From Armatimonadota bacterium (GTDB lineage: Bacteria > Sysuimicrobiota > Sysuimicrobiia > Sysuimicrobiales > Sysuimicrobiaceae): a stretch of 64,000 nucleotides of DNA. Position numbers and translations under genes: made by a program. The stretch is taken from positions 1-64,000 of the forward strand of contig JAVKGX010000003.1 of NCBI GenBank assembly GCA_031432545.1, written 5' to 3'. This document shows, piece by piece, positions 6,992 through 27,972 of this stretch. The notes beneath the pieces were generated by a model. That model saw only the letters and a program-made list of their open reading frames with translations. It was not told the DNA's origin and searched no databases. Each line of letters opens with the position of its first letter. The stretch's first letter is position 1.

Positions 6992-7026
6992 CCACGTCGA
7001 CGTCGCAGTAGTTGGAGAAGACGACG

Positions 7027-8613
7027 ATGAGGATCGTTTCGCCATCGGGTGTGGAGGTACGCGGTCCCGAAGTTCCGGGTGCCGAGCGGGTCCTCACCCC
7101 AGAAGCCCTGGACTTCGTCGGCGCGCTGCACTTGGAGTTCCGCGCCAGGCGCGGCGCGCTGCTGGAGCGCCGGTCGCAGAGGCAGGTGGAGATCCTCGCC
7201 GGCGCGATGCCCGACTTCCTCCCCGAAACCGCGGCTGTACGCGACGGCGCGTGGCGGGTGGCGCCGGCACCTCCCGATCTCGAGGACCGGCGCGTGGAGA
7301 TCACCGGTCCCGTCGAGCGCAAGATGATGATCAACGCGCTCAACTCCGGCGCGCGCGTCTTCATGGCCGACTTCGAGGACGCGCTGTCGCCGACCTGGGC
7401 GAACGTCGTCGCGGGCCAGCAGAACCTGATCGACGCCGTGCGCCGCACGATCACCTACACGAGTCCGGAGGGCAAGCGCTACCGGCTGAACGAGACGACC
7501 GCCACGCTGGTGGTGCGGCCCCGGGGATGGCACCTGGTCGAAAAGCACGTGTGGGTGGACGGCGAGCCGATCTCGGCCAGCCTGTTCGACTTCGGGCTGT
7601 ACTTCTTTCACAACGCGCGGGAGCTGCTGGATCTGGGCAGCGGTCCGTACTTCTACCTCCCCAAACTCGAGAGCCACCTCGAGGCGGCTTTGTGGAACGA
7701 CGTGTTCCAGTATGCGCAGGACGCGGTGGGCATCCCGCGGGGGACGATCCGGGCCACGGTGCTGATCGAGACGATCCTGGCGGCGTTCGAGATGGATGAG
7801 ATCCTCTACGAACTGCGGGACCACGCATCCGGGCTGAACGCTGGGCGCTGGGACTACATCTTCAGCGTGATCAAGAAGTTCCGCCACCGTCCCGACTTCG
7901 TGCTCCCTGACCGTGCGCAGGTCACCATGGTGGTGCCGTTCATGCGCGCCTACACCGAGCTGCTGGTCAAGACGTGCCACCGCCGCGGCGCGCACGCGAT
8001 CGGCGGCATGGCGGCGTTCATCCCCAGCCGCAAGGACCCGGCGGTCAACGAGGTGGCGCTGGCGAAGGTGCGCGAAGACAAAGAGCGGGAGTCGGGCGAC
8101 GGGTTCGACGGGACCTGGGTGGCACATCCGGACCTGGTGGCGGTGGCGCAGGATCCGTTCGACCGCGTGCTGGGCGGCCGCCCGCACCAGAAGGAGCGGC
8201 TGCGGGAGGACGTGCAGGTGACCGCGCGAGACCTGCTGGACATCCGCGTCCCCGGCGGCTCGATCACGGGCGACGGGGTGCGCAACGACGTCAGCGTGGC
8301 CCTGCAGTATCTCGATGCCTGGCTGCAGGGCACGGGAGCGGCCGCGATCTACAACCTGATGGAAGACACGGCGACCGCCGAGATCTGCCGCGCCCAGCTG
8401 TGGCAGTGGATTCGCCACGGCGCCAGATTGCACAAGGACGGCGCGGTGGATGAGGCGCTGTACCGTTCATTGCGGGAAGCGGAAGTCGAGCGCCTGGTCC
8501 GCGAGGGAGCCGCCGGATCGAAGGTAGGCGAGGCCGCAGAGATCCTCGACGCACTCGTGCTCAGCGAGGAGTTCGTGGAGTTCTTGACGGTGCCGGGGTA
8601 CGAGCGGCTATAG
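7027..8613 (+). CDS. aceB: malate synthase A
   Basis: Condenses glyoxylate with acetyl-CoA to malate. 528 residues from ATG 7027, preceded by GGAGAAG; TTG 7012 is an alternative. Typical form-A malate synthase landmarks are visible: [13 protein letters not shown] near residue 120, a [11 protein letters not shown] block, [16 protein letters not shown] (catalytic Arg/Glu region), YIFSVIKKF and [13 protein letters not shown]. glcD follows after 43 bases, then glcE and glcF, so glyoxylate made by glycolate oxidase would be used directly here. No isocitrate lyase is visible in the window. Confidence 0.95.
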
Positions 8614-8656
8614 GAGCGCGACTCACCCCTCCCTGACGCCCGTCGGTCATGAAACC

Positions 8657-10042
8657 GTGAGCACGTTCGACATCCGATCATCGCTTCGGGAGATCTACCC
8701 ACCCGCTCGGATCCTGACGCGACCGGCCGAGCTGGCGCCGTACGAATCCGACGCGCTGACGGCTTTCCGCGCCCGGCCGGTCGCCGTCGTCCTGCCGCAG
8801 ACGCAGGACGAGGTCGTGGCCACCGTCCGCTGGTGCAACCGTACGGGTGTACCGTTCGTGGCGCGGGGCAGCGGCACCAGCCTGTCGGGCGGCTCGCTTC
8901 CCGTGCCCGACGGGATCGTGATCGCCCTCAACCGATTGAACCGCATCCTGCGCCTGGACCCGACCGAACGCCTGGCCGTGGTGGAACCGGGCGTCATCAA
9001 CAGCGACGTCTCGCGGGCGGCCGCGCCCCATGGTCTGTACTACGTGCCCGATCCGAGCAGCCAGCCGGTCTGCACGATCGGGGGCAACGTCGCGTTCAAC
9101 TCCGGCGGGGCCCACTGCCTGAAGTACGGGATGACCACCAACCACGTGCTGGCGATCAAGGCCGTGCTGGCCGACGGCGAGGTGGTGCAGCTGGGGGGCG
9201 GCAGCGTCGAGGGCGTCGGGCCGGACCTGGTTGGGATCTTCGTCGGCTCCGAGGGGCTGTTGGGCATCGCGCTGGAAATCACGCTCCGGCTGCTGCCCAA
9301 GCCCGAAGGCTACCGCACGGTGCTGGCAGCGTATCGCACCCTCGAGGCGGCGGGCGAGGCGGTGGCCCAGGTGGTGGCGGCGGGGTTGCTGCCCGGCGCG
9401 ATGGAGATCATGGATCGGCTGGCCATCGAGGCCGCGGAAGCCGCGGTTGGGGCGGGGTATCCGTTGGACGCGGCGGCCATCCTGATCGTCGAACTCGAAG
9501 GCGAACTCCCCGAGATCGAAGCCGAACTGGCGCACCTGATGCGGGTCATCAAGGTTTCGGGGGCCTACGAAGTCCGCCTGGCGCGCGACGAGGCGCAGCG
9601 GCAGGTGATCTGGAAGGGGCGTAAGAGCGCGTTCTCCGCGGTGGGGCGACTGAGCCCCGATTACATCGTCCAGGACGGCGTCGTCCCGCGCGGCCGGCTC
9701 GCAGAGGCGCTCGCGGAGATCGAGCGGTTGAGCCGCGAGTCAGGCATCCGCGTCGCCAACGTGTTCCACGCCGGCGACGGCAACCTGCACCCGCTCATCC
9801 TCTACGACGGACGCCAGCCGGGCGCGCTGGCACGGGCGGAGGAACTCGCCGGCGAGATCCTGCGGCTGTGCGTGCGTCTGGGGGGATCGATCACCGGCGA
9901 GCACGGCGTGGGGATGGAAAAGCGCGACTACCTGCCGCAGATGTTCGGCCAGGCGGACCTGGAGGCGATGCGGCGGTTGCGGCGGGCTGTCGACCCGCTG
10001 GAACTGTCCAACCGGGGCAAGATGTTCCCATCGCGCGAGTGA
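8657..10042 (+). CDS. glcD: glycolate oxidase FAD-binding subunit GlcD
   Basis: Oxidises glycolate (or D-lactate) to glyoxylate (or pyruvate) with FAD, passing electrons to the GlcE/GlcF partners. 461 residues from GTG 8657. The PCMH-type FAD domain shows [16 protein letters not shown] and [21 protein letters not shown] in the first 160 residues. The C-terminal cap ends with [14 protein letters not shown] and [17 protein letters not shown], which carry the metal-binding His residues and a conserved Glu-His pair. Its stop codon overlaps the GTG start of glcE, indicating translational coupling. Confidence 0.94.
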
Positions 10043-11127
10043 GCCTGCGCATGATCTGCCGCCCACGCAGCATCGACGATGTGCAGGAGGTGGTGCGCGA
10101 GCGTACGCGGATCAGGCCGCGCGGGGGCGGCACCAAGACCGCGCTCTCGGCTCCCGCCGACGGCGAGACGGTCGTGGACATGTCGGGCCTGACAGGGGTC
10201 GTGGAGTACGATCCGGGCGAGTTCACCTTCAGCGCGCTGGCTGGCACGCCGGTGCGCGAAGTGGAAGCACTGCTTGCACAGCACGGTCAGTACCTACCCT
10301 TCGACCCGCCGCTCGCCGCGGCGGGGGCCACGCTGGGTGGGACCGTCGCCGCGGGTTTGAGCGGGCCCCGGCGGTATCGCTACGGCGGGGTACGGGACTT
10401 CGTGCTCGGCGTGCGATTCGTCGACGGCGAGGGGCGCGTCGTGCGTGGCGGCGGCAAGGTCGTCAAGAACGTCGCCGGTTTCGACTTTCCCAAGCTGATG
10501 GTCGGGAGCCTGGGGCGGTTGGGTGTGCTGGTCGAACTCTCGTTCAAGGTCTTCCCGAGGCCACGGTCGTACGCAACGGTGCACGTCGAGCGCGCCGACA
10601 TGAGCGCGGCGGTGGAGGCGCTGAAAGACCTCTACGTGAGTCGGTTCGACATCGAGGCGCTGGACCTGGAGCCGCCGGGCGTTCTGTGGGTACGAATCGG
10701 GGGCCTATCCGAGTCCCTGGACGTGCGGCTGCAGCGGCTGCTGGAGTTCTTGGGGCGGGCGGCGCGGGTTTTGCGCGGCGACGAGGAAGTTGCGCTGTGG
10801 GAGTCCGTCCGCGAGTTCTCGTGGGTTCCCGCCGGATGTTCCCTGGTCAAGGTGTCAATCACACCGGGACGGGTTACGGCACTGGAGGAGCGACTGGCAG
10901 CGAGGGAGCCTGCGCGCCGGTACAGCGTCGGCGGCAACCTGGCATGGGTAGCGTGCCCCGGTGACCTCGGAGACCTGGACGCGATCCTGACGTCTGTTGG
11001 ACTGGCGGGCCTGTGCGTTCTGGGTCCTCCGGGGCGGGTGCGCCTGGGCGCGTGGGGCGACGGTGTGTTCGCCGAGAGGGTGAAGCGCGCCCTCGACCCT
11101 GGGGGGCGCTTCGGGAGAATTGCCTAG
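10039..11127 (+). CDS. glcE: glycolate oxidase subunit GlcE (FAD-binding)
   Basis: Second FAD-binding subunit of glycolate oxidase, about 362 residues. GTG 10039 overlaps the glcD stop as GTGA; ATG 10051 is a nearby alternative. The N-terminal FAD domain contains [13 protein letters not shown] and [22 protein letters not shown], then [12 protein letters not shown] and [19 protein letters not shown], typical of GlcE. It lacks the C-terminal metal-binding His cluster found in GlcD, as expected. It sits between glcD and glcF, touching both. Confidence 0.93.
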
Positions 11128-12395
11128 TGCAGCATAAGATTCCGCTGGGGCGGTACGGAGCGGCCGGTGCGCACATGGCCCAGGCCGTGGAGACGTGCGT
11201 GCACTGCGGGTTCTGTCTTCCCGCCTGCCCCACGTACCGTGTGCTCGGCGAAGAGATGGACTCCCCGCGCGGCCGCATCTTCCTCATGAAGGAAGTCCTG
11301 GAGGGCAGTCTGGCACCGGACGAAGCGGCGCCGTTCGTCGACAGGTGCCTGGGGTGCATGGCCTGCGTGACCGCATGCCCTTCCGGAGTCCGGTACGGCG
11401 AGCTGCTCGTACCTTTCCGCGATCATGCCGAACAGCACCGCCGCCGGCCCATCGGCGAGCGGGTGCTGCGTCGGGTGGTGATGGCGACGCTGCCCCATCC
11501 GGGGCGGTTCCGTCTCGCCGCGTGGGCAGGACGCCTCGCGGGCCCGTTGGCCCATATCCTGCCGTCACGCCTGCAGGCGATGGTGGAACTGCTCCCGTCT
11601 TCCCTTCCCTCGGCATTGCCGTTGCCTGAGGTCGTTCCGGCGCAGGGAACGCGTCGCGCGCGCGTGGCGCTGCTGTCGGGATGTGTGCAGGAGGTGCTCG
11701 CGCCCGAGATCAACCGGGCGACGCTGCGTGTGCTGAGCCGCAACGGCATCGAGACCGTGATCTCCAAGGAGCAGGGATGCTGCGGCGCTCTCCCGATGCA
11801 CGCGGGAGAAGCGAAGCTGGCGCGCGCTCTGGCTCGCCGCAACCTCGCAGCGTTCCCTCCCGACGTGGATGCGGTGGTGACGAATGCGGCCGGATGCGGA
11901 TCGGCGATGCGCGAGTACGGCCTGCTGTTTGCCGGCCACCCCGAAGCGCCGACCGCCGAGGCGTTGGCGCGCAGGGTGCGCGACGTGAGCGACTTCCTCG
12001 CCGAAGTCGGCATCGTGCCTTCAGGCTCGCTTGGTGCTGGGGTACGGGTGGCCTACCACGATCCCTGCCACCTCGCTCACGCGCAGGGGGTACGCGAGGC
12101 ACCGCGGCGGCTGCTGTCAACCGTCGCCAACCTGAGTCTATTGGAGCCGGAGGAGTGGGAGATCTGCTGCGGGTCGGCTGGGATCTACAACCTCGAACAG
12201 CCGGACATCGCCCAAGACCTCGGCCGCCGCAAGGCCCACAACCTGCTGGCCACCGGTGCCGAGGTGGTGGCCACCGGCAACGTCGGGTGCATCGTGCAGA
12301 TCCGGGCGCACCTCGCGAGGCTGGGCAGATCCCTGCCCGTCTTGCACACCATGGAGATCCTCGACCGGGCGTATTCTGGGCTTCCCCTCGCGTAG
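11127..12395 (+). CDS. glcF: glycolate oxidase iron-sulfur subunit GlcF
   Basis: Electron-transfer subunit, about 422 residues from GTG 11127, whose first base is the last base of the glcE stop; GGGAGA lies about 10 bases upstream. Two 4Fe-4S motifs are present: [12 protein letters not shown] near residue 22 and [12 protein letters not shown] near residue 75. Two cysteine-rich CCG-type domains follow, seen as [16 protein letters not shown] and [13 protein letters not shown]. This layout is standard for GlcF and other respiratory CCG-domain subunits. A convergent lyase gene follows, separated by a hairpin. Confidence 0.94.
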
Positions 12396-14966: not shown

Positions 14967-15764
14967 CTACGTGTCTGTGGGCTTCGGCTGGCCTTGAGAT
15001 CCCCGTGCCCCCGCTGGCCGGCGATCGGTGGGCTTGACTGCGATCACCGTCGCGGTGAACACCGGCGCCGCCGAACAGCACCCGGCTTCGCCGCATCCGT
15101 CGGACAGGCCGCGCGTCAGGCGCACGCCCACGAACCCCGCCTCCCGGACGGCCCGCAGGTACTCCGCCACGGGGAGCGCCCCCGCCAGACACGCGCTCCA
15201 AGCTTCCGGATCCTCGCGCAGTTCTTGCGGCAGCGCCGCCGACGCCAGGATGTCGGAGACGACGAGCCGACCGCCGGGCCGCAGCACCCGGTACGCTTCT
15301 CGGAAGACGCGGGCCTTGTCCGGTAAGAGGTTGATCACGCAGTTGCTCAGGATCACGTCGGCAAACGCGTCCGGCAGCGGCAGCGCCTCAATGTCCCCCA
15401 GCACGGACGAGACGTTGCGCACGTCCAGGCGCCGGGCATTGCGTTCCGCTCGCTCGATCATCTCCGGCGTCATGTCGACGCCGACGACGTGCCCTTCCTC
15501 CGTGACCGCCCGCGCCGCCAGGAACAGGTCCAGCCCCGCACCCGAGCCCAGGTCCACAACCACCTCGCCGGGCTTGAGGCCCGCGGCCGACACGGGGCTG
15601 CCGCATCCGAGCGAGGTGTTGCGCACCTCTTCTGGGACCCCCGCCAGGACTGCGGGATCGTAGCCCAGTGGCTCCGGACCGCAGCAGCACCCACATCCCG
15701 CATCGCGTGTGGCCTGCTGAGCGTACCGGGCCCGAACCGCCCGTTTCAGGTTGTCTGGTTGCAT
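14967..15764 (-). CDS. arsM: arsenite S-adenosylmethionine methyltransferase
   Basis: Methylates As(III) using S-adenosylmethionine. 265 residues from ATG 15764 with GGAGGTG about 6 bases upstream. An N-terminal CGCCCG cysteine cluster is followed by LGCGSP, the SAM-binding VVDLGSGAGLDLFLAA, VVGVDMTPEMIE, LSNCVINLLPDK, and a later conserved cysteine in AWSACLAGALP, the cysteine pattern that distinguishes ArsM from other class I methyltransferases. A further Cys cluster GCGEAGCC lies near the C-terminus. It follows an ArsR regulator and a small ORF on the same strand. Confidence 0.93.
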   Translation of the reverse strand: MQPDNLKRAVRARYAQQATRDAGCGCCCGPEPLGYDPAVLAGVPEEVRNTSLGCGSPVSAAGLKPGEVVVDLGSGAGLDLFLAARAVTEEGHVVGVDMTPEMIERAERNARRLDVRNVSSVLGDIEALPLPDAFADVILSNCVINLLPDKARVFREAYRVLRPGGRLVVSDILASAALPQELREDPEAWSACLAGALPVAEYLRAVREAGFVGVRLTRGLSDGCGEAGCCSAAPVFTATVIAVKPTDRRPAGARGSQGQPKPTDT

Positions 15765-15937
15765 GGGCACACCTCCACGCTTAAGGTTTGCCGAAACCAC
15801 CGCACGGACGGTTGTGCACAGTGTACGGCGGTGCGCCGGCGGGTCGCCTCGTGGACGAGGGTGTCTTGTCGCCGCTCGCGCAGGATCTCCCGGGTCCCCT
15901 CGCCTGCCCACGCTTCCGACAGCAAGGGGTGCATCAT
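15746..15937 (-). CDS. small protein between arsR and arsM, function unknown
   Basis: 63 codons from ATG 15937 with GAGGAGG six bases upstream, one of the best ribosome sites in the region; its 3' end overlaps the arsM start by 19 bases. The N-terminus (MMHPLLSEAWAGEGTREILR, then a basic helix) looks like the amphipathic start of small soluble proteins seen in actinobacterial genomes; the second half looks unstructured and includes CPC near the end. The real product might therefore be shorter or frameshifted. Position suggests co-expression with arsM. Confidence 0.45.
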   Translation of the reverse strand: MMHPLLSEAWAGEGTREILRERRQDTLVHEATRRRTAVHCAQPSVRWFRQTLSVEVCPCNQTT

Positions 15938-15955
15938 CTTCGCCTCCTCGATCAT

Positions 15956-15973
15956 CATCGACGAATATCGATG
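15956..15973. promoter_or_regulatory. ArsR-type operator candidate upstream of the small ORF/arsM
   Basis: Perfect inverted repeat CATCGA-CGAATA-TCGATG, 19 bases before the small ORF start. AT-rich core in a GC-rich region; shares the ATCGAT element with the site before arsR. Confidence 0.5.
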
Positions 15974-16101
15974 AATGTACCCCACAGGGAACTGCCGCAC
16001 AGCAAGGGCGATCAACACCGCGCTGTCCTCGCAGGCGCCCTGGAACTGGGCGGAGGCGGTCAGCCGCGGAGGGCTGTGCCCGTCGGATGCTGATGCGGCG
16101 T

Positions 16102-16446
16102 TCACAGCACTTCCACCAACCCCTGGGCCAGCCGCTTGACGGTGTCGCGGCGCAGGGAGTAGTACGCCCACGTCCCGCGGCGGGCGACCTCGACCAGGCC
16201 GGCGTCGCGCAGGACCTTCAGGTGGTGGGAGATCGTCGGCTGGGCCAGGTCGAAGGCTCCCTGGATTTCGCACACGCACAGCGCCGGATGGCGGGCAAGA
16301 AGCCGCGCGATGGCCAGCCGGACGGGGTCGCCCAACGCCGCGAACACCCGCGCATCGCGCTCGGCCGCCTGGCTGTCGGGCGCGGGCAATCTGACGACGC
16401 AGCAACCCGGCGGTTCCATGCGCGGCAGTGTGGTCGCAGTGCTCAT
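16102..16446 (-). CDS. arsR: ArsR/SmtB-family metalloregulator
   Basis: 114-residue winged-helix repressor from ATG 16446, with GGAGG 6 bases upstream. The helix-turn-helix reads AQPTISHHLKVLRDAGLVEV and the wing RRGTWAYYSLR. CVCE in the alpha-3 region (ALCVCEIQGAF) is the classic As(III)/Sb(III) binding pair of ArsR; a further CC pair lies near residue 15. It is predicted to release DNA on binding arsenite and so induce arsM downstream. The long open frame upstream of ATG 16446 overlaps the next gene and is rejected. Confidence 0.92.
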   Translation of the reverse strand: MSTATTLPRMEPPGCCVVRLPAPDSQAAERDARVFAALGDPVRLAIARLLARHPALCVCEIQGAFDLAQPTISHHLKVLRDAGLVEVARRGTWAYYSLRRDTVKRLAQGLVEVL

Positions 16447-16473
16447 CTTCGGCCTCCTGCGCCCAGCGTAGGG

Positions 16474-16491
16474 GATGTATCGATATATGTC
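16474..16491. promoter_or_regulatory. ArsR operator/promoter candidate before arsR
   Basis: GATGTATCGATATATGTC, an imperfect palindrome around ATCGAT at 16479-16484, lies 28 bases upstream of the arsR start and is strikingly AT-rich. It suggests autoregulation. Confidence 0.5.
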
Positions 16492-16535
16492 AATGAAATA
16501 TTTGGCGCCCCGGCGCCGGGCCGTGTGCAGGTGGC

Positions 16536-17678
16536 CTATGGGAGCCCGTGGCGTGCGAGCGTGCCGGCCAGCCATCCCGCTCCGGCGGCGAGGAGCGTCG
16601 TGCCCACCGAAAGGTGGATGGACCAGCCCAGACCGGTCAGGTGCGCTCCCGGATGCCCACCCCCAGTCCCGTACAGGACGTCGATCGCGGGCAGTTGCGA
16701 CAGGACAAGGAAGTACAGCAGGCAGTAGACAGTCGGGATCGCCGCGGTCACTAGCGGCAGCTCGGACGCCCGCGGCGGGTGGGCCGCCTTCTGGGCCAGG
16801 GAATCGGTCAGCAGTCCGGCGCCGGCAGCCACTGCGAGGAACGGATATCGGTCCTGCAGCGCGACCATCAGCAAGCCGTTCAGCCCAAACGCGATCGTGA
16901 AGGTGCCGAAGGGAGGTCGGCGGCGGCGGAGGATCCAGGCGGCGGTCGCGGCCAGCAAAGTCGCCTGCAGCAGGATGCTCAGAACGCCCATCGCCTCCCC
17001 GAAGAAGAACCGGTTGTAGCGATACGTCTGCAGCCCCGTGCGCATGAACCCGATCGAGGGCCACGGGTCCGTGAGCGGGTGTGCGAACTGGGTGACGAAG
17101 GTGACCACCGAAAGCCCGAACGAAATCGACAGCGCCGCGGGCAGCCAAGATCCCGCCTGGGTCGACCACCCGCCGACCCACGCGCTGCGCAGCGGCCCCG
17201 TGACGACGAACAGCAGGCCCGCTGCCTGGAGGATGTGGGCGGGGCCGAGCATGCCGGTCAGGGACTCGAACCGGAACGCTGCCCCCGGCGTCTGGATGCC
17301 GGTTCCCGGCCACAGGGCACCGGCAGCGGTCGCTGCGGCGCACAGCACGGCACCGATCAGGGACTGCGAGTAGGCGGGCCCGAGTGTCTGCTGCCAGGAG
17401 GCGGCGTCACGCTGCCGCAGCAGCGGCGCGGCCAACACGATACAGGTGATCGCCAGCGCCGCGTGAAACGGCGCGTGCCACACCGTGAGGGCCGCCGGGA
17501 TCTCGGGCGGTGCCAGCGGTGGCGGCGAGGGCATACCGGGCAGCAGGGGCCGGTCGGGGATGCGCCGGTTGTGTGCCCACCCGTCGAGGTAGAGCGCACC
17601 TATGAGCAGCGCGCCCAACCCGGCGACAAGCCAGTCGAAGCGGCGGCTGGCATGCCCGGTTGCGGGGTTCGTGGGCAT
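16536..17678 (-). CDS. polytopic membrane protein of unknown function
   Basis: 380 residues from ATG 17678 with roughly nine or ten hydrophobic helices. I do not recognise a named domain. Features that look functional are DGWAHNRR just after helix 1, VWHAPFHAAL at the start of helix 2, HILQAAGLLF, QFAHPLTDPWP in the middle and HPGAHLTGLGWSIHL near the C-terminus. These are several His residues at membrane borders next to Trp and Pro, a pattern seen in haem- or metal-related membrane proteins. It lies directly upstream of arsR on the same strand, with the arsR operator in between, so a link to metal handling is possible but unproven. Confidence 0.75.
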   Translation of the reverse strand: MPTNPATGHASRRFDWLVAGLGALLIGALYLDGWAHNRRIPDRPLLPGMPSPPPLAPPEIPAALTVWHAPFHAALAITCIVLAAPLLRQRDAASWQQTLGPAYSQSLIGAVLCAAATAAGALWPGTGIQTPGAAFRFESLTGMLGPAHILQAAGLLFVVTGPLRSAWVGGWSTQAGSWLPAALSISFGLSVVTFVTQFAHPLTDPWPSIGFMRTGLQTYRYNRFFFGEAMGVLSILLQATLLAATAAWILRRRRPPFGTFTIAFGLNGLLMVALQDRYPFLAVAAGAGLLTDSLAQKAAHPPRASELPLVTAAIPTVYCLLYFLVLSQLPAIDVLYGTGGGHPGAHLTGLGWSIHLSVGTTLLAAGAGWLAGTLARHGLP

Positions 17679-17821
17679 TGCCACCTGTCGTTCGTCGGTC
17701 ACGGACGGAGGACCGCCTGCCACCTCCACCTCCGCGCTGCAGGCGCCTCTGCCCTGCGGTCGGTCTGTGGCGACCGCCCGCGGGCCCGGAAGGGTATGCC
17801 CGGCACGGATGCGGCGCTGCC

Positions 17822-19108
17822 CTACAGGGCCCGGGTGGCGCCGCGTCCGAGGACGACGATCCCCGATCGGTCCACGTGGTAGTGGGCCGCGTCGACGTCG
17901 GCGTCGAAACCGATCCACGTACCGGGCTCGATCGTGTTGAACCGGTCCACGATCGTCCGTCGCAGGCGGCTGCCCCGCCGGACGATCGTGAAGTCCATGA
18001 CGATCGACTCCTCGATCTCGACGTCGGCCTCGACGCGCACGCCGCGCCCGAGGATGGACCGCCTGATGCGCCCGCCGGAGACAATGCTCCCCTCGCCGAC
18101 CAGTGAGTCCGTGACGTCTCCGTGCACGATCCGGGCCGGCGGACCCGGGTAGGGCGCGCCCATGATCGGCCACAGGTGATTGGCTAGATCCAAGCGCGGT
18201 TCGGTCCCCAGTAGGTCCATGTGCGCGTTCCAGTACGCTTCGATCGTCCCCACGTCGCGCCAGTAACCCGGCTCCTCGTAGTCGCGGACGCCGGGGATCC
18301 GGTTCGCGTGGAAGTCGTAGGCGAACACCCTCTGGTGGGCCACCATGCTGGGGATGACCGTGCGGCCGAAGTCGTGGTCGGTGTCCTGCCGGGCGTTCTC
18401 GATCAGTGTCTGGACGAGCAGGTCGGCGTTGAAGACGTAGTTGCCCATCGACCCCAGAGCGTGCGTGGGACGGCCGGCCATCGTCTTCGGCTCAAGGGGT
18501 TTCTCCTCGAAGCCCAGCACGCGGCCCTCGTCGTCGGCTTCGACGATGCCCAGCCCGGACGCCCGGTCCAGGGGAACGGGCAGCGCCGCGACCGTCACGT
18601 CGGCCTCACAGTCCAGGTGGAACTCCACCATCTGGGAGATGTCCATGCGGTAGATGTGGTCGGCGCCGAAGATCGCGACGAGCGAAGGCCCGTAGTCGCG
18701 AATCAGGTTCAGGTTCTGGTAGACAGCGTCCGCAGTCCCCCGGTACCAGGAGTCCCCCCATCGCATCTGTGGCGGCACGACCAGGATGAAGTGGTCCTCG
18801 TGCACGCCGCTCGCGCGCCAGGCGTGCCGGAGGTGGTCGATCAGCGATTGGGACTTGTACTGGACCAGGATGTACAGCGAGAAGACGTTCGAGTTGACGA
18901 AGTTGCTCAGCACGAAGTCCACGATGCGGTACTTGCCTCCGAACGGGACGGCGGGTTTGCTGCGCTCACGGGTGAGCGGGTGGAGGCGCTCGCCGCGCCC
19001 GCCGGCGAGGATGATGCCGAGGGTTCGTCGCCGCCCGCCGGGATAGCCGGCGCGGCTGGCGGCGGTTTTGGGGGTGGTCACGCCGTACACACCATCCTCA
19101 CTGCGCAC
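17822..19108 (-). CDS. glgC: glucose-1-phosphate adenylyltransferase (ADP-glucose pyrophosphorylase)
   Basis: Makes ADP-glucose for glycogen synthase from ATP and glucose-1-phosphate. 428 residues from GTG 19108; GTG 19081 is also plausible and gives a start nearer the conserved core. Landmarks: LAGGRGERLHPLTRERSKPAVPFGG (N-terminal nucleotide and activator loop), QMRWGDSWYRGTADAVYQNL, IFGADHIYRMD, GFEEKP, ALGSMGNYVF and YWRDVGTIEAYW. The C-terminal left-handed beta-helix carries hexapeptide-like repeats from about 320. Its start overlaps the stop of the mscS-type gene. It is the last gene of a minus-strand run that begins with a GpgS fusion. Confidence 0.95.
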   Translation of the reverse strand: MRSEDGVYGVTTPKTAASRAGYPGGRRRTLGIILAGGRGERLHPLTRERSKPAVPFGGKYRIVDFVLSNFVNSNVFSLYILVQYKSQSLIDHLRHAWRASGVHEDHFILVVPPQMRWGDSWYRGTADAVYQNLNLIRDYGPSLVAIFGADHIYRMDISQMVEFHLDCEADVTVAALPVPLDRASGLGIVEADDEGRVLGFEEKPLEPKTMAGRPTHALGSMGNYVFNADLLVQTLIENARQDTDHDFGRTVIPSMVAHQRVFAYDFHANRIPGVRDYEEPGYWRDVGTIEAYWNAHMDLLGTEPRLDLANHLWPIMGAPYPGPPARIVHGDVTDSLVGEGSIVSGGRIRRSILGRGVRVEADVEIEESIVMDFTIVRRGSRLRRTIVDRFNTIEPGTWIGFDADVDAAHYHVDRSGIVVLGRGATRAL

Positions 19109-19955
19109 CTTCCGACGGTGCGATGGCCTGCAGAGGGATTCCGCGCTCGGCCAGCGCCCGCCTCACCCGCACGCGCAATTCGCGTTCGGCCTCCCAGTGC
19201 AGCAGTGGCTTCACCGGGATCGACAGGCGCAGCGTCGCAGAAGACCCGGAGATCTCCATCGGTCCTTCCACGCGGACGGGGCCGAGCGCGCGGTCGGGGT
19301 TGCGCGCCGCCCAGGTCTCGCCGACTTGCGCGAGCACGGCGGCCACTCCTTCCAGGTCCGCGTCGGCGGGGACCGCGACCGTGAGCATCGCCCGCATGTA
19401 CCCGCGGTTGAGGTTCGCAAACCGCAAGATCTCGCCGTTGGGGATCGTGACGAGTTCGCCGGTGAAGCGTCGGATCTGCGTTGTGCGGATGCCGATCTGC
19501 TCCACCTGCCCCGTATCAGGTCCGACGCGGATGACGTCGCCGACCTGGATCGCTCCGTCCAGGATCAGAAAGAAACCGCTGATGGTGTCCCGGATCAGGT
19601 ACTGGGCGCCGAAACCGATCGCCAGGCCCACAACGCCGGCGCTTGCGAGGATGGCCGTCACGTGGACGTTGAGCTGGGCGAGAATCGTCACTGCCGCGAC
19701 AAAGTACAGCACGTAGCGGAACGCGCTGTGCAGCAGCGGGACCAGCGTGCGCGCCCGTGCCGCACGGCCGGCGTAGTCCCTTGCCCCTTCGCGTGGCTGC
19801 AGCGCACGTTCGAGGGCCCGCCGCGAGAGGTTGTTGAGCATACGCACGCCCACCAAGATCGATAAGACCACGACCGCACTTCGCACGGCTGCCGCGAGAG
19901 CGGCCGGCGAGAGCAGCTGCATCAGGGTCTCGCGCACGACGTCGATGGCGGCCAC
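19098..19955 (-). CDS. mscS: MscS-family small-conductance mechanosensitive channel
   Basis: About 285 residues from GTG 19955 (GTG 19937 is an alternative; AGGAGG lies between). One or two N-terminal helices are followed by the pore helix region LASAGVVGLAIGFGAQYLIRD, which has the Gly/Ala-rich packing typical of MscS TM3, then ISGFFLILDGAIQVGDVI and the beta domain with TTQIRRFTGELVTIPNGEI. A C-terminal mixed alpha/beta vestibule domain follows. It opens on membrane tension and releases small solutes on hypo-osmotic shock. Its position between the osmolyte hydrolase and glgC suggests that it is part of an osmolyte-control operon. Confidence 0.92.
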   Translation of the reverse strand: MAAIDVVRETLMQLLSPAALAAAVRSAVVVLSILVGVRMLNNLSRRALERALQPREGARDYAGRAARARTLVPLLHSAFRYVLYFVAAVTILAQLNVHVTAILASAGVVGLAIGFGAQYLIRDTISGFFLILDGAIQVGDVIRVGPDTGQVEQIGIRTTQIRRFTGELVTIPNGEILRFANLNRGYMRAMLTVAVPADADLEGVAAVLAQVGETWAARNPDRALGPVRVEGPMEISGSSATLRLSIPVKPLLHWEAERELRVRVRRALAERGIPLQAIAPSEGAQ

Positions 19956-19971
19956 CTCCTGCGAGGCGAAC

Positions 19972-21765
19972 CTAGATCTCCTGCCGCGTGCGGCGGATCG
20001 CCAGGTCGATGAACAGCGCCGCGGACCACCCGAACCCGGGCGCTGCTTTCTCGGGTACCTCACCGGTCTCCGGGTGATAGTACTCCTTGATGTCGGCGTG
20101 CCGGGCTACCAGCCCCAGCGTACGGTCGCACAGATCGCGCGCCAGTTGCCGCTCCCCGCAGCGCATCAACGCCTCGACGAGCAGGTAGTTGATGTTGACC
20201 CATACCGGGCCGCGCCACATCTGGTTGGGGTCGTAGCGCGGGTCGGACCGGGCGACCGTTGGCACGGGATAAAGCGTCCAGAACGTCTTGGGATCGCGCA
20301 GGCGCGCGAGGAGCTGCCGATTGACCTCCGGCGGCAGGCGGCCGGTCCACAGCGGCAGCAGGCTCATCGGCGTGAGCACCGGCACGGGTTCGTGTCCACC
20401 GTCGGTCATCCGAAGAGCGCGGAAGATCCCGGCAGCACGATCGTACAGATGCGCCAGCAGACTCCGGGCGGCGGCGTCGGCCTGCTCCCGCCAGCGCGCG
20501 GCGTCGCGGGTCTCGCCGAGCACTTCGGCCATGTTCGCCAGAGCCTCCGCCTGCAGGCACAGGTATGTGTTGAGATCCGGGGACTCGACCGGCATCCCCC
20601 AGTCCCACAGTGGGCTGTCGTCCAGCCCGGAGGAGTAGGGATGGTCGTACTGACAGACGCCGTCGCGGTCCGCGTCGCAGTGCTCGAACCACCACTGCTG
20701 CCAACGAGCGATCGGTTCGTACATCTCGGCCAGAAAGTCCCGGTCGCGGGTCACCTCGTACACCCGCCAGGCCGCCCACCCCGCGACCGGCGGCTTGGTG
20801 ACTTTCGCGTCGACGGGGTAGCTGAGCCGCTCGACGATCCCCTCGTCGAAGACTGCGTCCGGCACCATGCCGTCCGGTCGCTGGTGGTCGAACATGACGC
20901 GGAACTGGTCGTGCGCGAGTTGCGCGTCGACGTGGCGGTAGGCGAGGGCGTGGAAGAACGCGTCCCACTGCCACAGCCCGACGTAGTGCACCTTCGAGGG
21001 AACCATCGCCTCCCGCGTGAGGTAATATCGGCTGCTGATCAGCCCCGCGCGCATCAGGTACCAGGCGTAGTAGTACGTCGACACCCAGGGTTCGACGACC
21101 GCGGGGACGGCCGCGAACCAGTTGCGCCAGCGACGCTCGGCCTCCTCGAACGTCGCGTCCGGATGGACGCGGCGGTCGAAGCCCAGCCTCGGCGTGATGT
21201 TCAGCGTGACCATCCCGTCGGCGACCGGTTCGACCAGCAGCGTGGCCCGCCAGCGGTTGTGGTCCTCATTGTGGATCTCGTTGTGCACGATGGGGGCGTT
21301 GGTGGTGTAGGCGACGTGCCGGATCCCGCGCGTGTGGCCGCCGCGGCGGTCGGTGGCAGCGGACTCGGCCCGCACCACCAAGCGCAGCCCACACCGCGCG
21401 GCGGGCAGGCGGATGGCGATCAGCTCGGGTGTGGCGAAGGCCATCTCGAACCGCCCGAGGCGGGTTTCGACGACGAGCTTGTGCGGGTAGGTGACGAGAC
21501 GGAAGGACAGGGCCTGTCCGGCCCCGTCGAGGAACTCGATGTCGCGCACCAGCGGCGGCCGCACCCGGTAGTGCCCTTCCGTGTACTCGAACTTCGGCCA
21601 GCGTTCGCAGACGCGGACGTACAACCGGTCGGCGCCGTTCTCCCGGAACACGAGCAGCCGGCTGCCCCGATCGGTGAACGGGACCACCCCGATGTCGAGC
21701 CGGTTGCGCAGGACCTCGATCGGGTCACCAAGGCGGGTCGCGGTCGGGGCGTCGCCCATCGTCAC
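19972..21765 (-). CDS. GH63 glycoside hydrolase, probable glucosylglycerate/mannosylglycerate hydrolase
   Basis: 597 residues from GTG 21765 (ATG 21759 two codons later). Folds as an (alpha/alpha)6 barrel in the second half: LWQWDAFFHALAYRHVD near 260-280 and GMPVESPDLNTYLCLQAEAL near 420 are where the family places its acidic catalytic pair. HNEDHNRW, TKPPVAGWAAW, QYDHPYSSGLDDSPLWDWG and WRGPVWVNINYLL are further family blocks. An N-terminal beta-rich domain precedes it. Bacterial GH63 members of this size hydrolyse glucosylglycerate or mannosylglycerate to the sugar and glycerate, and the gene just upstream is a GpgS-type synthase, which favours glucosylglycerate. No signal peptide, so intracellular. 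Confidence 0.85.
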   Translation of the reverse strand: MTMGDAPTATRLGDPIEVLRNRLDIGVVPFTDRGSRLLVFRENGADRLYVRVCERWPKFEYTEGHYRVRPPLVRDIEFLDGAGQALSFRLVTYPHKLVVETRLGRFEMAFATPELIAIRLPAARCGLRLVVRAESAATDRRGGHTRGIRHVAYTTNAPIVHNEIHNEDHNRWRATLLVEPVADGMVTLNITPRLGFDRRVHPDATFEEAERRWRNWFAAVPAVVEPWVSTYYYAWYLMRAGLISSRYYLTREAMVPSKVHYVGLWQWDAFFHALAYRHVDAQLAHDQFRVMFDHQRPDGMVPDAVFDEGIVERLSYPVDAKVTKPPVAGWAAWRVYEVTRDRDFLAEMYEPIARWQQWWFEHCDADRDGVCQYDHPYSSGLDDSPLWDWGMPVESPDLNTYLCLQAEALANMAEVLGETRDAARWREQADAAARSLLAHLYDRAAGIFRALRMTDGGHEPVPVLTPMSLLPLWTGRLPPEVNRQLLARLRDPKTFWTLYPVPTVARSDPRYDPNQMWRGPVWVNINYLLVEALMRCGERQLARDLCDRTLGLVARHADIKEYYHPETGEVPEKAAPGFGWSAALFIDLAIRRTRQEI

Positions 21766-21774
21766 AACGGCGTC

Positions 21775-23607
21775 TCAGCGAGAGCTTGACAGGGCGCGCT
21801 GCCGAGCCAGTTCGCTCCGGCGTGCGCGGTACTCGGGCAGCGTGACCATCGGAGGGCGCTCCCACTCCACCACCTCGCGCTCTTCCAGCGCGAGTTGCCC
21901 TTCGGCGGACCGGATCAGCTTCATGGTGCGCGTGGCGTCTCCGAGGAAGGGGACGCTGAGCCGGTCCTCGAGCCGCCGCATCACCACCTGGACGATCTGG
22001 AACGACATCATCGACAGAGTCTGCAGCGACTGGTTGCGGTGGATCCGCTGCTCGAGATCCACCTGGCCGATCGCACCCAGCCCGAAACGGGTCAGGATGT
22101 CGATCAGCATGCCGGTCTCCACGCCGTAGCCGGTGAAGAACGGGATCTGCTCGAGCACCTCGCGCCGCCCGGCGTATTCGCCGGCCAGCGGCTGGATCAG
22201 GCCGCTCAACTCGGGGAAGAAGAGATTGAGCAGCGGCCGGGCGGTGAGCTCGGTGACGCGGCCGCCTCCCGTCTCGTACATGCGGCCGCCGACCTGTACC
22301 GGCCGACGGTAGTAGCCCTTGACGAACTGGATCCGCCCTTCGCGCAGCAGCGGCCCGATGAGCCCGTAGACGAACTTCGGATGCATGTTCCGGATGTCGG
22401 TGTCCACCCAGACCACGATGTCGCCGCGCAGGACGTACAGGCTCTTCCACAATGCCTCGCCCTTGCCGCGGTAGGTGCCGTACTGGGGCAGGATCTGCGC
22501 GTGACGGTAGACCGAGACGCCTTCGTCGTGGGCAATCTCGCGCGTGCGGTCGGTGGAGTCGCTGTCGATGAGGGCGATCTCGTCGAGCAGTGGGACCTCG
22601 CGCATCAGGGCGTCGCGCAGGACCCGGATGATCTGGCCGATCGTCTCCTGTTCGTTCAGCGCCGGCAGGCCCAGGCTGATGGTCACGCCGCGTTGCTCCT
22701 TCAGGGCCAGCAGGCGATCCAGGTCGGCGAACTCGCGTGCGTGGAATGTGTTCTCGGCGAACCACTTCTCGACCTCGGGGAGAGACCATCGCGAGGGGAG
22801 GCGGGCCTGGCGGGCCATCCACGCCTCCACCGGCTGCGCGCTGCTGACGACGATCAGCGGCCGAATCCTCCGGAACGCCGGCTGGATCGCGGGGCGCTGT
22901 GGGTCTGCGGTCGCCCCCACCACGACGGCCGTGTAGCCGGCGGACTCGCGGGCGATGACATCGGCTGCGCTGCCGGCGGCGATCCGCTTGCGGACCGTCC
23001 CCTCCGCGTGCTCCATGACGGCGATGTAGGGCCGTTCCTCCCGCCAGCGGTCGCGTTCGGGGATGTCGTCCCGGAAGACGTGCAGCCCTGTGACCTCGCC
23101 CCCTTCCGGTTGGGCCAGGGCCGTGGCGACGCGCAGCGCCAGCTCGGCGTTCGGGCCGCCGCGCACCCCGACGAGGATGCGGTGAAACGCCTCCGGGGGC
23201 ATGGCCGGCATCAGCACGAGGTCGCAGGGCGGGTGGTGCAGGACGAAGTCGACGGTGCGTTCGAACAGATGGGACCGTTCCGCGCCGTCCTCGAGCAGGA
23301 CGAGTAGCGCGGCGTCGTGCTCGAGGCAGGCGGCGACGACCTCCTCCCAGGGTTCGCGTCCCACCCGGACCAGCGGGTGCACCCGGACATCGGAAGCCTC
23401 GGCCGCGGCAGCCTCGAGTCTCTCACGGGCGCGTTGCGCTTCGATCGCACCCTGGCTCAGCGGCGCGGGCGGCGGGACGGCCACCGTGTACAGCAGCAAC
23501 AGCGGCGCCTGCCAAGCGCGCGCGAACCGCCTGCCCACTTCGGTAGCCGCGCGTGCCTGGTGCAAGTCGGCCAGCGGGAGGAGAATCGGGCGCGTCACTG
23601 TCTCCAT
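21775..23607 (-). CDS. tandem Usp domains fused to a GpgS-type glucosyl-3-phosphoglycerate synthase
   Basis: 610 residues. About 1-135 and 155-265 are two universal-stress-protein-like alpha/beta domains (ITRPILLPLADL-type beta1, VRVGREPWEEVV, then HRILVGVRGGPNAELALRVA and AVVVGATADPQ). About 290-600 is a GT-A fold GT81-type transferase: VTISLGLPALNEQETIGQII, IDSDSTDRT, VWVDTDIRN (metal-binding DXD), YYRRP, GGGRVTELTARPLLNL, PLAGEYAGRREVLEQIPFF and GYGVETGMLID, all hallmarks of GpgS, which joins NDP-glucose to 3-phosphoglycerate. Standalone GpgS is about 300-330 residues; the Usp fusion is unusual. The next gene is the predicted hydrolase of the same osmolyte. No GpgP phosphatase is evident in the window. 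Confidence 0.9.
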   Translation of the reverse strand: METVTRPILLPLADLHQARAATEVGRRFARAWQAPLLLLYTVAVPPPAPLSQGAIEAQRARERLEAAAAEASDVRVHPLVRVGREPWEEVVAACLEHDAALLVLLEDGAERSHLFERTVDFVLHHPPCDLVLMPAMPPEAFHRILVGVRGGPNAELALRVATALAQPEGGEVTGLHVFRDDIPERDRWREERPYIAVMEHAEGTVRKRIAAGSAADVIARESAGYTAVVVGATADPQRPAIQPAFRRIRPLIVVSSAQPVEAWMARQARLPSRWSLPEVEKWFAENTFHAREFADLDRLLALKEQRGVTISLGLPALNEQETIGQIIRVLRDALMREVPLLDEIALIDSDSTDRTREIAHDEGVSVYRHAQILPQYGTYRGKGEALWKSLYVLRGDIVVWVDTDIRNMHPKFVYGLIGPLLREGRIQFVKGYYRRPVQVGGRMYETGGGRVTELTARPLLNLFFPELSGLIQPLAGEYAGRREVLEQIPFFTGYGVETGMLIDILTRFGLGAIGQVDLEQRIHRNQSLQTLSMMSFQIVQVVMRRLEDRLSVPFLGDATRTMKLIRSAEGQLALEEREVVEWERPPMVTLPEYRARRSELARQRALSSSR

Positions 23608-23693
23608 TTTAGTCGGTAGCCCAGAACGGGTAGCGACGGCGACGGGATGGTGCGCGACAGGGACCTCGCGCGCCAGGAGCGAACCCTATCGGT

Positions 23694-24773
23694 ATGCCGC
23701 ATTTGCTGGACGACGCAGACCGCAGGCGCGCGCTGGACCCGCAGGACATGCTGGGGCTCGCGCTGCGGCTGGGCGAGACGCTGCGCGAGGGGTGGGCGCT
23801 CGGCCTCGAGGCGGACGTCGGTGGCGCACCGGACGCGGTGGACCACGTCTTGGTCATGGGCCTGGGCGGGTCGGGGATCGGGGGCGATCTCCTCCGAAGT
23901 GTGCTGTTCGACTCCGCTCCGTTCCCCGTCGTGGTCGTCAAGGACTACGCTCTGCCGGCATGGGTTGGTCCGCGGACTTTGGCATTCGCCTGCTCGTACT
24001 CCGGCAACACCGAGGAGACACTGGCCGCCTACGCCGCGGCCCGGAGGGCGAAGGCGAGGTGTGTGGCGATCACTTCCGGGGGTGAACTCGCTCACCGCGC
24101 GCACGCCGACGGCGTGCCGGTGATCTCGATCCCCTCCGGTTGGCCACCGCGGGCCGCGCTGGGATACCTGTTCGCGCCGTTGCTGGCGGTCCTCGAACGC
24201 TGGGAGGTCGTCCGAGGTCACGCCGCAGGGTTGGAGGAGGCCGCGTTGCTGCTCGCCGCGCTGGGCGCGGCCTGGGGTCCGGAGAGGCCGCAGTCGGACA
24301 ACCCGGCCAAACAGCTTGCGCGCAGCCTGCTCGGCCGGGTGCCCGTCGTCTACGCCGCGTCCCGCTTCACCGAAGCGGCGGCGCTGCGCTGGAAGTGCCA
24401 GCTCAACGAGAACGGCAAGGTGTACGCGGTCTGGAACACCTTCCCCGAACTGAACCACAATGAGACCGTAGGGTGGGGGCTGAGCGGTCAGCCCGACGGG
24501 CTGTTCGAGGTCGTCGTGCTGCGCGACGCGTCCGACCCGCCGCGCCTTGCGCAGAGGGTCGAGATCACGCGGGAGATCGCCCTCGGCGGAGCCGCGGGGT
24601 TCCACGAGGTACACAGCGAGGGTGCAGATCCGCTGGCCCGGTTGATGTCCCTGATCCTGTTCGGTGACCTCGTGAGCGTGTACCTGGCGTATTCGAACGA
24701 GGTGGATCCCTATCCGGTGCCGGTGATCGACGAACTGAAGCGTCGGTTGGGGGAGGCAGGGACGCCCCCCTAG
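23694..24773 (+). CDS. bifunctional phosphoglucose/phosphomannose isomerase
   Basis: 359-residue SIS-fold isomerase interconverting fructose-6-phosphate with glucose-6-phosphate and mannose-6-phosphate. VLVMGLGGSGIGGDLLR and FACSYSGNTEETLAAY are the first SIS domain; VYAASRFTEAAALRWKCQLNENGK and FPELNHNETVGWG, with the conserved ELNHN catalytic segment, mark the PGI/PMI subfamily. It starts 87 bases from the divergent Usp-GpgS gene, so the two may share a regulatory region. It supplies hexose phosphate to glycogen and to glucosylglycerate. Confidence 0.94.
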   Translation: MPHLLDDADRRRALDPQDMLGLALRLGETLREGWALGLEADVGGAPDAVDHVLVMGLGGSGIGGDLLRSVLFDSAPFPVVVVKDYALPAWVGPRTLAFACSYSGNTEETLAAYAAARRAKARCVAITSGGELAHRAHADGVPVISIPSGWPPRAALGYLFAPLLAVLERWEVVRGHAAGLEEAALLLAALGAAWGPERPQSDNPAKQLARSLLGRVPVVYAASRFTEAAALRWKCQLNENGKVYAVWNTFPELNHNETVGWGLSGQPDGLFEVVVLRDASDPPRLAQRVEITREIALGGAAGFHEVHSEGADPLARLMSLILFGDLVSVYLAYSNEVDPYPVPVIDELKRRLGEAGTPP

Positions 24774-24818: not shown

Positions 24819-25919
<1,101 letters not shown>

Positions 25920-25987: not shown

Positions 25988-27109
25988 TCAGCGCGCGGGG
26001 CCTTGCTGCTGCTCGTATGCGGTCGTCGTCCTGATGCCGACCGCCCGGACGTGTTCGAGGCCGATGCGTTCCGGTCGCGTCACGCCCAGCAGCGTCATCG
26101 CGTTCACCAGTTCCTCCCGGAGGATCTGGAGCACGCGTGCCACGCCGGCCTCGCCGGCCACAGCCAGGCCCCACAGGTAGGGACGCCCGACGAAGACGGC
26201 CCGGGCACCTAGTGCCAGGGCGGTGACGACGTCCGTGCCGCGGCGTATGCCGGAGTCCACGTACACCTCGGCGCGACCACCAACCGCATCGACGATCTCC
26301 GCGAGCGCGTCGATCGCCGCCACCGCTCGGTCGAGCTGCCTGCCGCCGTGGTTGGAAACCCACACCGCCTCGACCCCGTGCTCTACGGCCTGCTGCGCGT
26401 CTTCCGCGGTCAGGACCCCCTTCAGCACGATCGGCAGCCGGGTCAGCGACCGCAGCCACGCCAGGTCGCCCCACGACAGGGAGCGGTCGAAGTGCAGCGA
26501 GACGGTGTCCATCAGGTCGCCTTCGGCCGGTAGGTTCGCCGGCTTGCACCGTGACAGGTCCAACGGTTCGCGGAGTTCGCGCTCGCGATAACCGGGGACG
26601 GGCAGGTCCACGGTGAGCACGATTGCCGTGTAGCCGGCAGTCTCCGCGCGGCGCACGAGTGCCTCTGCGACTGTGCGGTCGCGGTAGACGTACAGCTGGA
26701 ACCAGCGCGGTCCCGGGCGGACGGCGGCGACGTCCTCGATCGTCCGGCTCGCCAGCGTCGACAAGCACATTAGGACGCCGGCCTCGGCCGCCGCGCGTGC
26801 TGTCGCGACTTCCCCTTCCGGGTGGGCGAGCCCTTGCAGCGCGCACGGCGCCAGCCCGACCGGCATGGCCACCGGCGTCCCGAGCACGGTCGTCTGGGGA
26901 TCGACGCGGGAGACGTCCACCAACACCCGCGGCCTCAGCCGGTAGCGGGTGAAGGCCCAGACGTTGTCCCGCAGCGTGACTTCGTCGGCGGCGCCGCCCG
27001 CGTAGTACGCCCACGTGGCGGAGTCCATGTGGTCCCGGGCGAGCGCCTCCAGATCACAGACGCTGTGGATCCGATCGAGGTCGGTGCGGTCGGCCCCAGG
27101 CACGGTCAC
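25988..27109 (-). CDS. FMN-dependent alpha-hydroxy-acid oxidase/dehydrogenase
   Basis: 373 residues from GTG 27109, which overlaps the stop of the upstream stomatin gene as GTGA. The (beta/alpha)8 barrel shows the family's N-terminal YYAGGAADEVTLRDN, PVGLAPCALQGLAHPEGE, WFQLYVYRDR, LTVDLPVPGYRERE, LPIVLKGVLTAEDA with the FMN-binding Lys, and VSNHGGRQLD, whose His is the catalytic base, followed by VYVDSGIRRGTDVV and GRPYLWGLA. Members act on L-lactate, glycolate or other 2-hydroxy acids; the substrate cannot be told from sequence alone. It would be a second glycolate or lactate oxidising route besides glcDEF. Confidence 0.9.
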   Translation of the reverse strand: MTVPGADRTDLDRIHSVCDLEALARDHMDSATWAYYAGGAADEVTLRDNVWAFTRYRLRPRVLVDVSRVDPQTTVLGTPVAMPVGLAPCALQGLAHPEGEVATARAAAEAGVLMCLSTLASRTIEDVAAVRPGPRWFQLYVYRDRTVAEALVRRAETAGYTAIVLTVDLPVPGYRERELREPLDLSRCKPANLPAEGDLMDTVSLHFDRSLSWGDLAWLRSLTRLPIVLKGVLTAEDAQQAVEHGVEAVWVSNHGGRQLDRAVAAIDALAEIVDAVGGRAEVYVDSGIRRGTDVVTALALGARAVFVGRPYLWGLAVAGEAGVARVLQILREELVNAMTLLGVTRPERIGLEHVRAVGIRTTTAYEQQQGPAR

Positions 27110-27972
27110 GAACCGTCTTTGTCGCCGAAGGCCTTTCCGGTCAGTTCACCGAGCGGCCCGAGCAGCCTCGTGAACTCCATCGGGAAGATGAACTTCGTGG
27201 CCGGGCCTTCCCCCAACGCCTTCAACGCCTCAAGGTACTGCAGGGCCATCGTCTTGCTGTCGACGTTGCGGGCGACGGCGAAGATCTTGTCCAGCGCCAG
27301 CGCGAACCCCTCCGCCCGGAGGATGGCGGCCTGGCGGTCTCCCTCGGCCTTGAGGATCGCGGCCTGCTTTTCGCCCTCGGCGACCTTGATCGCCGCCTCG
27401 CGCTTGCCGTCAGCCTCGGTGACGACCGCCCGCCGGTTGCGTTCGGCCGACATCTGGCGCGTCATCGCCTCCTGGACCTCGCGCGGCGGCAGGATCTCGC
27501 GGATCTCGACCGCGGTCACCTTCACGCCCCAACGCTCGGTCACCTCGTCCAGCTTTGCCCGCAGCACCTGGTTGATCTGCTCGCGGCGGGCCAGCACGTC
27601 GTCCAGGCTGATGTCGCCGATGACGGCCCGAAGCGTCGTCGTCGCGATGCCCCTCGCCGCACCCGCGAAGTCGGCGACCTGGATGACCGACGACTCAGGG
27701 TCGATCACCTTCCAGTAGATCAAGAAGTCGATGTTGATCGGCGCGTTGTCCTTGGTGATGCAGGTCTGGGAAGGGATCTCCAGGAAGGCTTCCCGCAAAT
27801 CCACCCACACCGCGCGGTCCACGATCGGGATCAGGAACACGATACCGGGACCCCGCTGTCCGATCGAGCGCCCGAGGCGGAACACGACCAGGCGCTGGTA
27901 CTCCCGGACGATCTTGATGGCCGACACCAAGATCCACAGAGCGACGACCGCCCCACCGATCACATAGACCAT
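27106..27972 (-). CDS. SPFH/stomatin-like membrane protein (slipin)
   Basis: 288 residues from ATG 27972 with GGAGGTG 6 bases upstream. One N-terminal membrane helix (about 2-20), then the SPFH domain (VREYQRLVVFRLGRSIGQRGPG through ISLDDVLARREQIN), then a long charged coiled-coil (ERNRRAVVTEADGKREAAIK and repeated EGEKQAA/EGDRQAA blocks). Slipins form oligomeric membrane scaffolds, often with an NfeD partner and protease; no NfeD is next to it here. Overlap with the downstream oxidase suggests one transcript. Confidence 0.92.
   Translation of the reverse strand: MVYVIGGAVVALWILVSAIKIVREYQRLVVFRLGRSIGQRGPGIVFLIPIVDRAVWVDLREAFLEIPSQTCITKDNAPINIDFLIYWKVIDPESSVIQVADFAGAARGIATTTLRAVIGDISLDDVLARREQINQVLRAKLDEVTERWGVKVTAVEIREILPPREVQEAMTRQMSAERNRRAVVTEADGKREAAIKVAEGEKQAAILKAEGDRQAAILRAEGFALALDKIFAVARNVDSKTMALQYLEALKALGEGPATKFIFPMEFTRLLGPLGELTGKAFGDKDGS

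Follow-up and report, generated by a model that had tools for sequence, protein, structure and literature searches.

A conserved Sysuimicrobiota operon that joins a universal stress domain-GpgS fusion to a long-form GH63 protein and may serve a sugar-glycerate solute cycle

In the mannosylglucosylglycerate pathway described for Petrotoga and Rhodopirellula, a step of the glucosyl-3-phosphoglycerate synthase (GpgS) type is combined with a second glycosyltransferase. GpgS also initiates methylglucose lipopolysaccharide in mycobacteria. To our knowledge, the published mannosylglucosylglycerate pathway includes no universal stress protein (USP) fusion, GH63 enzyme or MscS channel. Genes for all three stand together in the operon described here, which lies in a 64,000-nucleotide stretch of DNA (the window) from an Armatimonadota bacterium of the GTDB phylum Sysuimicrobiota, also called CSP1-3 (assembly GCA_031432545.1, contig JAVKGX010000003.1, positions 1 to 64,000). 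The operon and its divergent neighbour consist of the following genes.

21775-23607, minus strand: tandem USP domains (residues about 6-255) fused to a GT81 glucosyl-3-phosphoglycerate synthase domain (about 277-591), 610 amino acids (Pfam, NF010496)
19972-21765, minus strand: long-form GH63 protein, N-terminal beta domain plus (alpha/alpha)6 barrel, 597 amino acids (MGH1-like_GH, E 7e-81)
19098-19937, minus strand: MscS-type mechanosensitive channel, 279 amino acids from its likely start (PF00924, 4.6e-20; PF21088, 2.3e-10)
17822-19081, minus strand: GlgC, ADP-glucose pyrophosphorylase (NF002023, 548.8 bits, cut-off 458)
23694-24773, plus strand: bifunctional phosphoglucose/phosphomannose isomerase (PGI/PMI), divergent (PF10432, 1.3e-50; NF006426, 383 bits, cut-off 295)

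The four minus-strand genes form one operon with spacers of 9, about 34 and about 16 nucleotides, and spacers in relatives are similarly short. Because each of the family's seven genomes keeps the order PGI/PMI-synthase-GH63-MscS-GlgC (in one of them split across two contigs), the arrangement is not a product of chance. An initial annotation had named these genes, placed them on these strands and read them as a single operon; Pfam, curated models and the gene-neighbourhood comparison agree on each point, so that the operon is real and conserved, while the biochemistry proposed for it is partly right. Two starts are shorter than the open reading frames suggest. The MscS frame (20063-19098) probably begins at a GTG at 19937, preceded by the Shine-Dalgarno sequence AGGAGGTGG, and the GlgC frame (19108-17822) probably begins at 19081, beyond the interval 19098-24773 that was first assigned to the system. 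No terminator exceeds shuffled expectation, and a promoter scan was empty, a result that carries no information in an organism of this kind. Control by a c-di-AMP riboswitch was dropped, as an Rfam scan of the window returned no riboswitch.

The operon suggests a stress-linked cycle that makes and recycles a sugar-glycerate compatible solute, in which glucosylglycerate is extended by a glycosyltransferase of family GT4 and the extended form is cleaved by the GH63 protein; we judge the chances for and against this reading to be evenly balanced. The USP-GT81 protein would join glucose, taken from UDP-glucose or from ADP-glucose made by the co-encoded GlgC, to 3-phosphoglycerate (3-PGA), and a phosphatase encoded elsewhere would strip the phosphate to give glucosylglycerate. 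GT4, encoded on another contig, would add a second sugar, and the true end product is probably a larger molecule than glucosylglycerate. During recovery the long GH63 would take off the second sugar, or otherwise cleave the extended solute, and PGI/PMI would return hexose phosphate to central metabolism. On osmotic down-shock, MscS would vent the solute.

Pfam finds two Usp stretches N-terminal to the GT81 domain (E 9.5e-18), and the synthase passes the cut-off of the curated GpgS model NF010496 (389.5 bits against 262). Its best PDB matches are the MpgS 3f1y and the GpgS 7p5l. At positions described for M. tuberculosis GpgS (PMC2581804), the window domain conserves the DxD motif, K114, E232 and H258, together with the acceptor-side (3-PGA) residues R185, V186, T187 and N260; the one departure is R101, replaced by H. 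Catalytic, metal, 3-PGA and base-pocket residues are like those of the solved GT81 enzymes (mycobacterial GpgS 4ddz/7p5l and R. xylanophilus MpgS 3f1y), and these residues bear out the GpgS-type chemistry predicted in the initial annotation. The window synthase differs from the solved chains, which have 326-387 amino acids, in its two additional N-terminal USP domains of about 270 amino acids.

The same comparison bears on the donor. If the GT81 domain acted as an MpgS on GDP-mannose supplied through PGI/PMI, the solute would be mannosylglycerate, and this would suit the nearest solved relative (Rubrobacter xylanophilus MpgS, 3f1y), the ability of PGI/PMI to produce mannose 6-phosphate, and a PLAGE motif as in MpgS. 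We consider this highly improbable. The cut-off of the curated GpgS model is passed and the base pocket is of the GpgS type (L52, E54, S81), where Rubrobacter MpgS has R, V and A; the retained S81 has been described as excluding guanine (PMC2581804). Since the pocket is of this type, UDP- or ADP-glucose is the likelier donor. Mycobacterial GpgS reportedly takes either (PMC2581804), so GlgC could feed the synthase.

The fusion itself, which the initial annotation missed, extends beyond the family. Among 22 non-family genomes that carry a long GH63, mostly from Chloroflexota, 19 have a USP-GT81 homologue, and nearly all of these matches start at or before query residue 40; one consists of two separate hits. 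In a tree of GT81 domains, several branches of which have low support, the USP-less family f5 of the phylum nests inside the fusions, so the USP domains were most simply lost once, in f5. Rubrobacter MpgS is oddly placed on a long branch of this tree, and its placement was not used. A structure model of the fusion scores poorly over its GT half (mean predicted local distance difference test score, pLDDT, 66), and no domain arrangement is claimed from it. No description of a GpgS fused to a universal stress protein or UspA was found in the open-access literature.

The synthase is accompanied by GT4 across the phylum. In a sample of 43 genomes from one order, GT4 is present in all 17 with GT81 and in one of the 26 without it (Fisher 4e-11, a value overstated by the relatedness of the genomes). 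GT4 adjoins GT81 in families f3 and f5 and in Chloroflexota; in the window genome it lies near the end of another contig, C15. Its best or near-best model is the mannosylglucosylglycerate synthase (MggS) NF041101, matched over the N-terminal half only. A second glycosyltransferase beside a GpgS-type step is implied here, as in Petrotoga and Rhodopirellula. The operon had been called a self-contained circuit, a description that does not hold: GT4, the phosphatase and probably a GT2-type enzyme are encoded elsewhere. Part of the last of these opens the window, next to a kinase.

2-277, plus strand: C-terminal fragment of a GT2-type transferase, a distant GpgS relative cut by the contig end (identified by homologue comparison)
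316-1674, plus strand: MOFRL-type glycerate 2-kinase (GlyK), a possible glycerate recycler (PF13660, 5.8e-86; PF05161)

The full-length homologue of the transferase in relatives has 409 amino acids and matches GpgS 7p5l at 2e-10. Gene order in relatives is GT4, metallo-hydrolase, GT2-type GpgS-like transferase, glycerate kinase. Because C15 ends in a truncated metallo-hydrolase, and the window contig (C3) opens with the C-terminus of the GT2-type enzyme, the two contigs are probably neighbours in the genome. It had been suggested that the genes at 2-1674 may close the loop by recycling glycerate. Both are real, and the transferase is linked to the pathway by its homologue in the Chloroflexota locus L070, which is clustered with GH63, GT4, USP-GT81 and a phosphatase; GlyK may equally belong to genes for glycolate and glyoxylate. 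It was set aside as proof of glycerate recycling, since malate synthase and a glycolate-oxidase-like gene lie close by as well. The plus-strand genes that follow it (4293-12395) encode GlgA, a GalT-like protein, malate synthase and a GlcD-like FAD oxidase, a possible glycolate/glyoxylate-to-glycerate route.

The GH63 protein is a long form, a feature that, like the partner GT4 outside the circuit, had been overlooked. Its N-terminus bears an extra domain of about 240 amino acids. The structure model (pLDDT 93) is matched over its full length by E. coli YgjK, a GH63 alpha-glucosidase, and the barrel, taken by itself, lies nearest the Thermus mannosylglycerate hydrolase MgH (Z 46, 1.5 A, 31% identity over 335 residues), with which YgjK ties in Z (about 46), but over 553 residues. 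Where the hydrolases discussed below have Gln115, YgjK aligns with a lysine; it is longer (760 amino acids) and about 24% identical. We know of no link between YgjK and sugar-glycerate genes.

Active-site residues were compared in 19 long-form proteins, with the residue list of Cereija and co-workers (PMC6608630). The catalytic Asp182 and Glu419 (D382 and E561 in the window) are kept in all 19, as are Tyr36, Trp40, Trp42, Asp43, Gly180 and Trp376 on the sugar side (W267, D268 and W517 are the window equivalents of Trp42, Asp43 and Trp376). On the glycerate side, Tyr88, Gln115, Arg216, Tyr222 and Tyr375 are conserved in all characterised GH63 glucosylglycerate and mannosylglycerate hydrolases (PMC6608630). 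All 19 long forms have Lys for Gln115 and Met for Tyr375; Arg216 gives way to Ser or Ala and Tyr222 to Leu or Ile, and only one of the proteins retains Tyr88. The window protein has R313, K324, S395, L398 and M516 in place of Tyr88, Gln115, Arg216, Tyr222 and Tyr375. About 56 cap residues are also deleted. The long GH63 therefore has the barrel fold, catalytic Asp/Glu pair and sugar subsite of MhGgH and Tt8MgH, but unlike them it has an extra N-terminal domain and no glycerate-contacting cap segment, whose residues are replaced. GH63 enzymes that act on larger substrates have open clefts, and glycerate-specific ones are capped (PMC6608630). Given the loss of both cap and glycerate-side residues, the long GH63 would be expected to act on something larger than glucosylglycerate.

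These substitutions also decide how much weight can be given to a simpler scheme, in which glucosylglycerate serves as the solute without further extension and is the direct substrate of the long GH63, whose glycerate site would be differently built. The intact catalytic and sugar-subsite residues and the likeness of the barrel to Thermus MgH are what such an enzyme would have, GH63 and GT81 are strongly linked, and no second GH63 was found in the window genome. Set against this are the five altered glycerate-side positions in the window protein, the last four of them altered in all 19 proteins, and its 102 bits with the glucosylglycerate hydrolase model NF047898 (cut-off 550). Moreover, genomes with a short GH63 that resembles glucosylglycerate hydrolase retain the long GH63 beside it. 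We regard the scheme as unlikely, though a serious contender, and the initial assignment of glucosylglycerate cleavage to this group of GH63 enzymes is not supported for the long form.

Clusters compared across phyla suggest where the long GH63 may act under the preferred reading of an extended solute. They unite GT4, USP-GT81, a histidine phosphatase, GH13_18 and the long GH63; homologues of the GH13_18 enzymes known from glucosylglycerate phosphorylase clusters adjoin USP-GT81 and long GH63 in Chloroflexota. Five Chloroflexota loci combine the long GH63 with an ABC (ATP-binding cassette) transporter ATPase and GH13_18, and four of them also carry a short GH63. The short GH63 of another Chloroflexota locus reaches 403 bits with the glucosylglycerate hydrolase model (cut-off 550), and in one locus an alpha-mannosidase of family GH38 replaces the short GH63. 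This catabolic context fits, without proving, a long GH63 that acts before a glucosylglycerate-specific step. No GH13_18 phosphorylase was found in the window genome; its one match is confined to residues 80-341 of a 1085-amino-acid frame, a pattern shared with other genomes, and a TreS-like protein is the more likely identity.

A histidine phosphatase resembling GpgP occurs in 7 of 29 GH63 loci, directly behind USP-GT81 in six of these. The homologue in the window genome (G000:C1:114559-115110, 36% identity) also resembles CobC and PspA models and is a candidate for the missing step. No HAD-type mannosyl-3-phosphoglycerate phosphatase (MPGP) scored over its cut-off.

Several observations weigh against an extended sugar-glycerate. 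GT4 scores 71 bits with the MggS model, far under its cut-off of 640, and other GT4 models compete. The USP ATP motif G-2X-G-9X-G(S/T) is missing from 11 of the 12 fusions tested; because the window protein is among the 11, a nucleotide-sensing role for these domains is doubtful. Three genomes of family f4 have GH63 but neither GT81 nor GT4, so GH63 can serve another substrate, which in these organisms must be made otherwise or imported. At the f4 loci L122, L123, L053 and L054, GH63 stands with PGI/PMI, and with a shortened MscS in at least three. The Chloroflexota loci yielded no MscS, and its linkage is limited to the Sysuimicrobiota phylum.

Finally, the f5 cluster, GT4-GT81-MscS-GH57 branching enzyme-GlgC-GH57/DUF3536, holds alpha-glucan branching enzymes and fits a polysaccharide role. 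(At L043:5851-14750 and other f5 loci, the GH57 genes take the place of GH63.) GT81 might, like GpgS in the mycobacterial lipopolysaccharide pathway, start an alpha-glucan or capped oligosaccharide that GlgC, GT4 and GH57 extend and GH63 trims. GlgC is usually near, GlgA is encoded in the window, and the full-length GH63 resembles the oligosaccharide-acting YgjK. The window genome, however, has no GH57 match, MscS suits a small solute, and the Chloroflexota clusters have a phosphatase and GH13_18 rather than branching enzymes; we therefore think this quite unlikely.

A broader proposal extends the solute cycle across Sysuimicrobiota, Chloroflexota and Thermomicrobiota. USP-GT81 and a dedicated GT4 would make a diglycosyl glycerate, for which the long GH63 would have a new hydrolase specificity, the stress domain would control the synthase, and a mechanosensitive exit would be co-encoded in Sysuimicrobiota. 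We put this forward tentatively and think it somewhat improbable as a whole. If true, it would give a concrete job to universal stress domains, for which a biochemical role is mostly unclear: in at least two phyla they would be covalently attached to the enzyme that commits the cell to making a protective solute. Within GH63, a large subfamily that is so far uncharacterised would gain a testable substrate class, and sugar-glycerate solutes would reach lineages with few isolates. Direct testing is possible because two named strains, Thermanaerothrix daxensis and Longilinea arvoryzae, carry the cluster.

MscS has a canonical sequence in its third transmembrane segment, and in families f1, f4 and f5 its gene comes immediately after GT81 or GH63. 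General knowledge of MscS and the gene's position make it a plausible solute exit; its membership of the operon, as first annotated, is conserved within Sysuimicrobiota and absent from the Chloroflexota loci. GlgC adjoins GT81-MscS in families f1 and f5. Its proposed role as a glycogen branch point is plausible given that the window also encodes GlgA, although GlgC may instead supply ADP-glucose to the synthase. Two further genes of known type bear on the surroundings of the operon.

4293-5798, plus strand: GlgA glycogen synthase, an alternative user of the GlgC product (TIGR02095, 576 bits, cut-off 328; PF08323)
24819-25919, plus strand: UgpC/MsmK-type sugar ABC transporter ATPase, a conserved neighbour (NF008653, 493.6 bits, over the cut-off)

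The ATPase gene is kept in families f1, f4 and f5. After GlgC, a minus-strand frame (16536-17720) encodes a hydrophobic membrane protein with no Pfam match. Beyond it, at 14967-16500 on the minus strand, an ArsR-family regulator (16102-) stands upstream of an apparent arsenite methyltransferase, called by eye, with an MFS transporter opposite; the group looks like an arsenic cluster. On the other side, an SPFH/band-7 protein (27106-27972, minus strand) adjoins the cluster in several families of the phylum at 78-91% identity.

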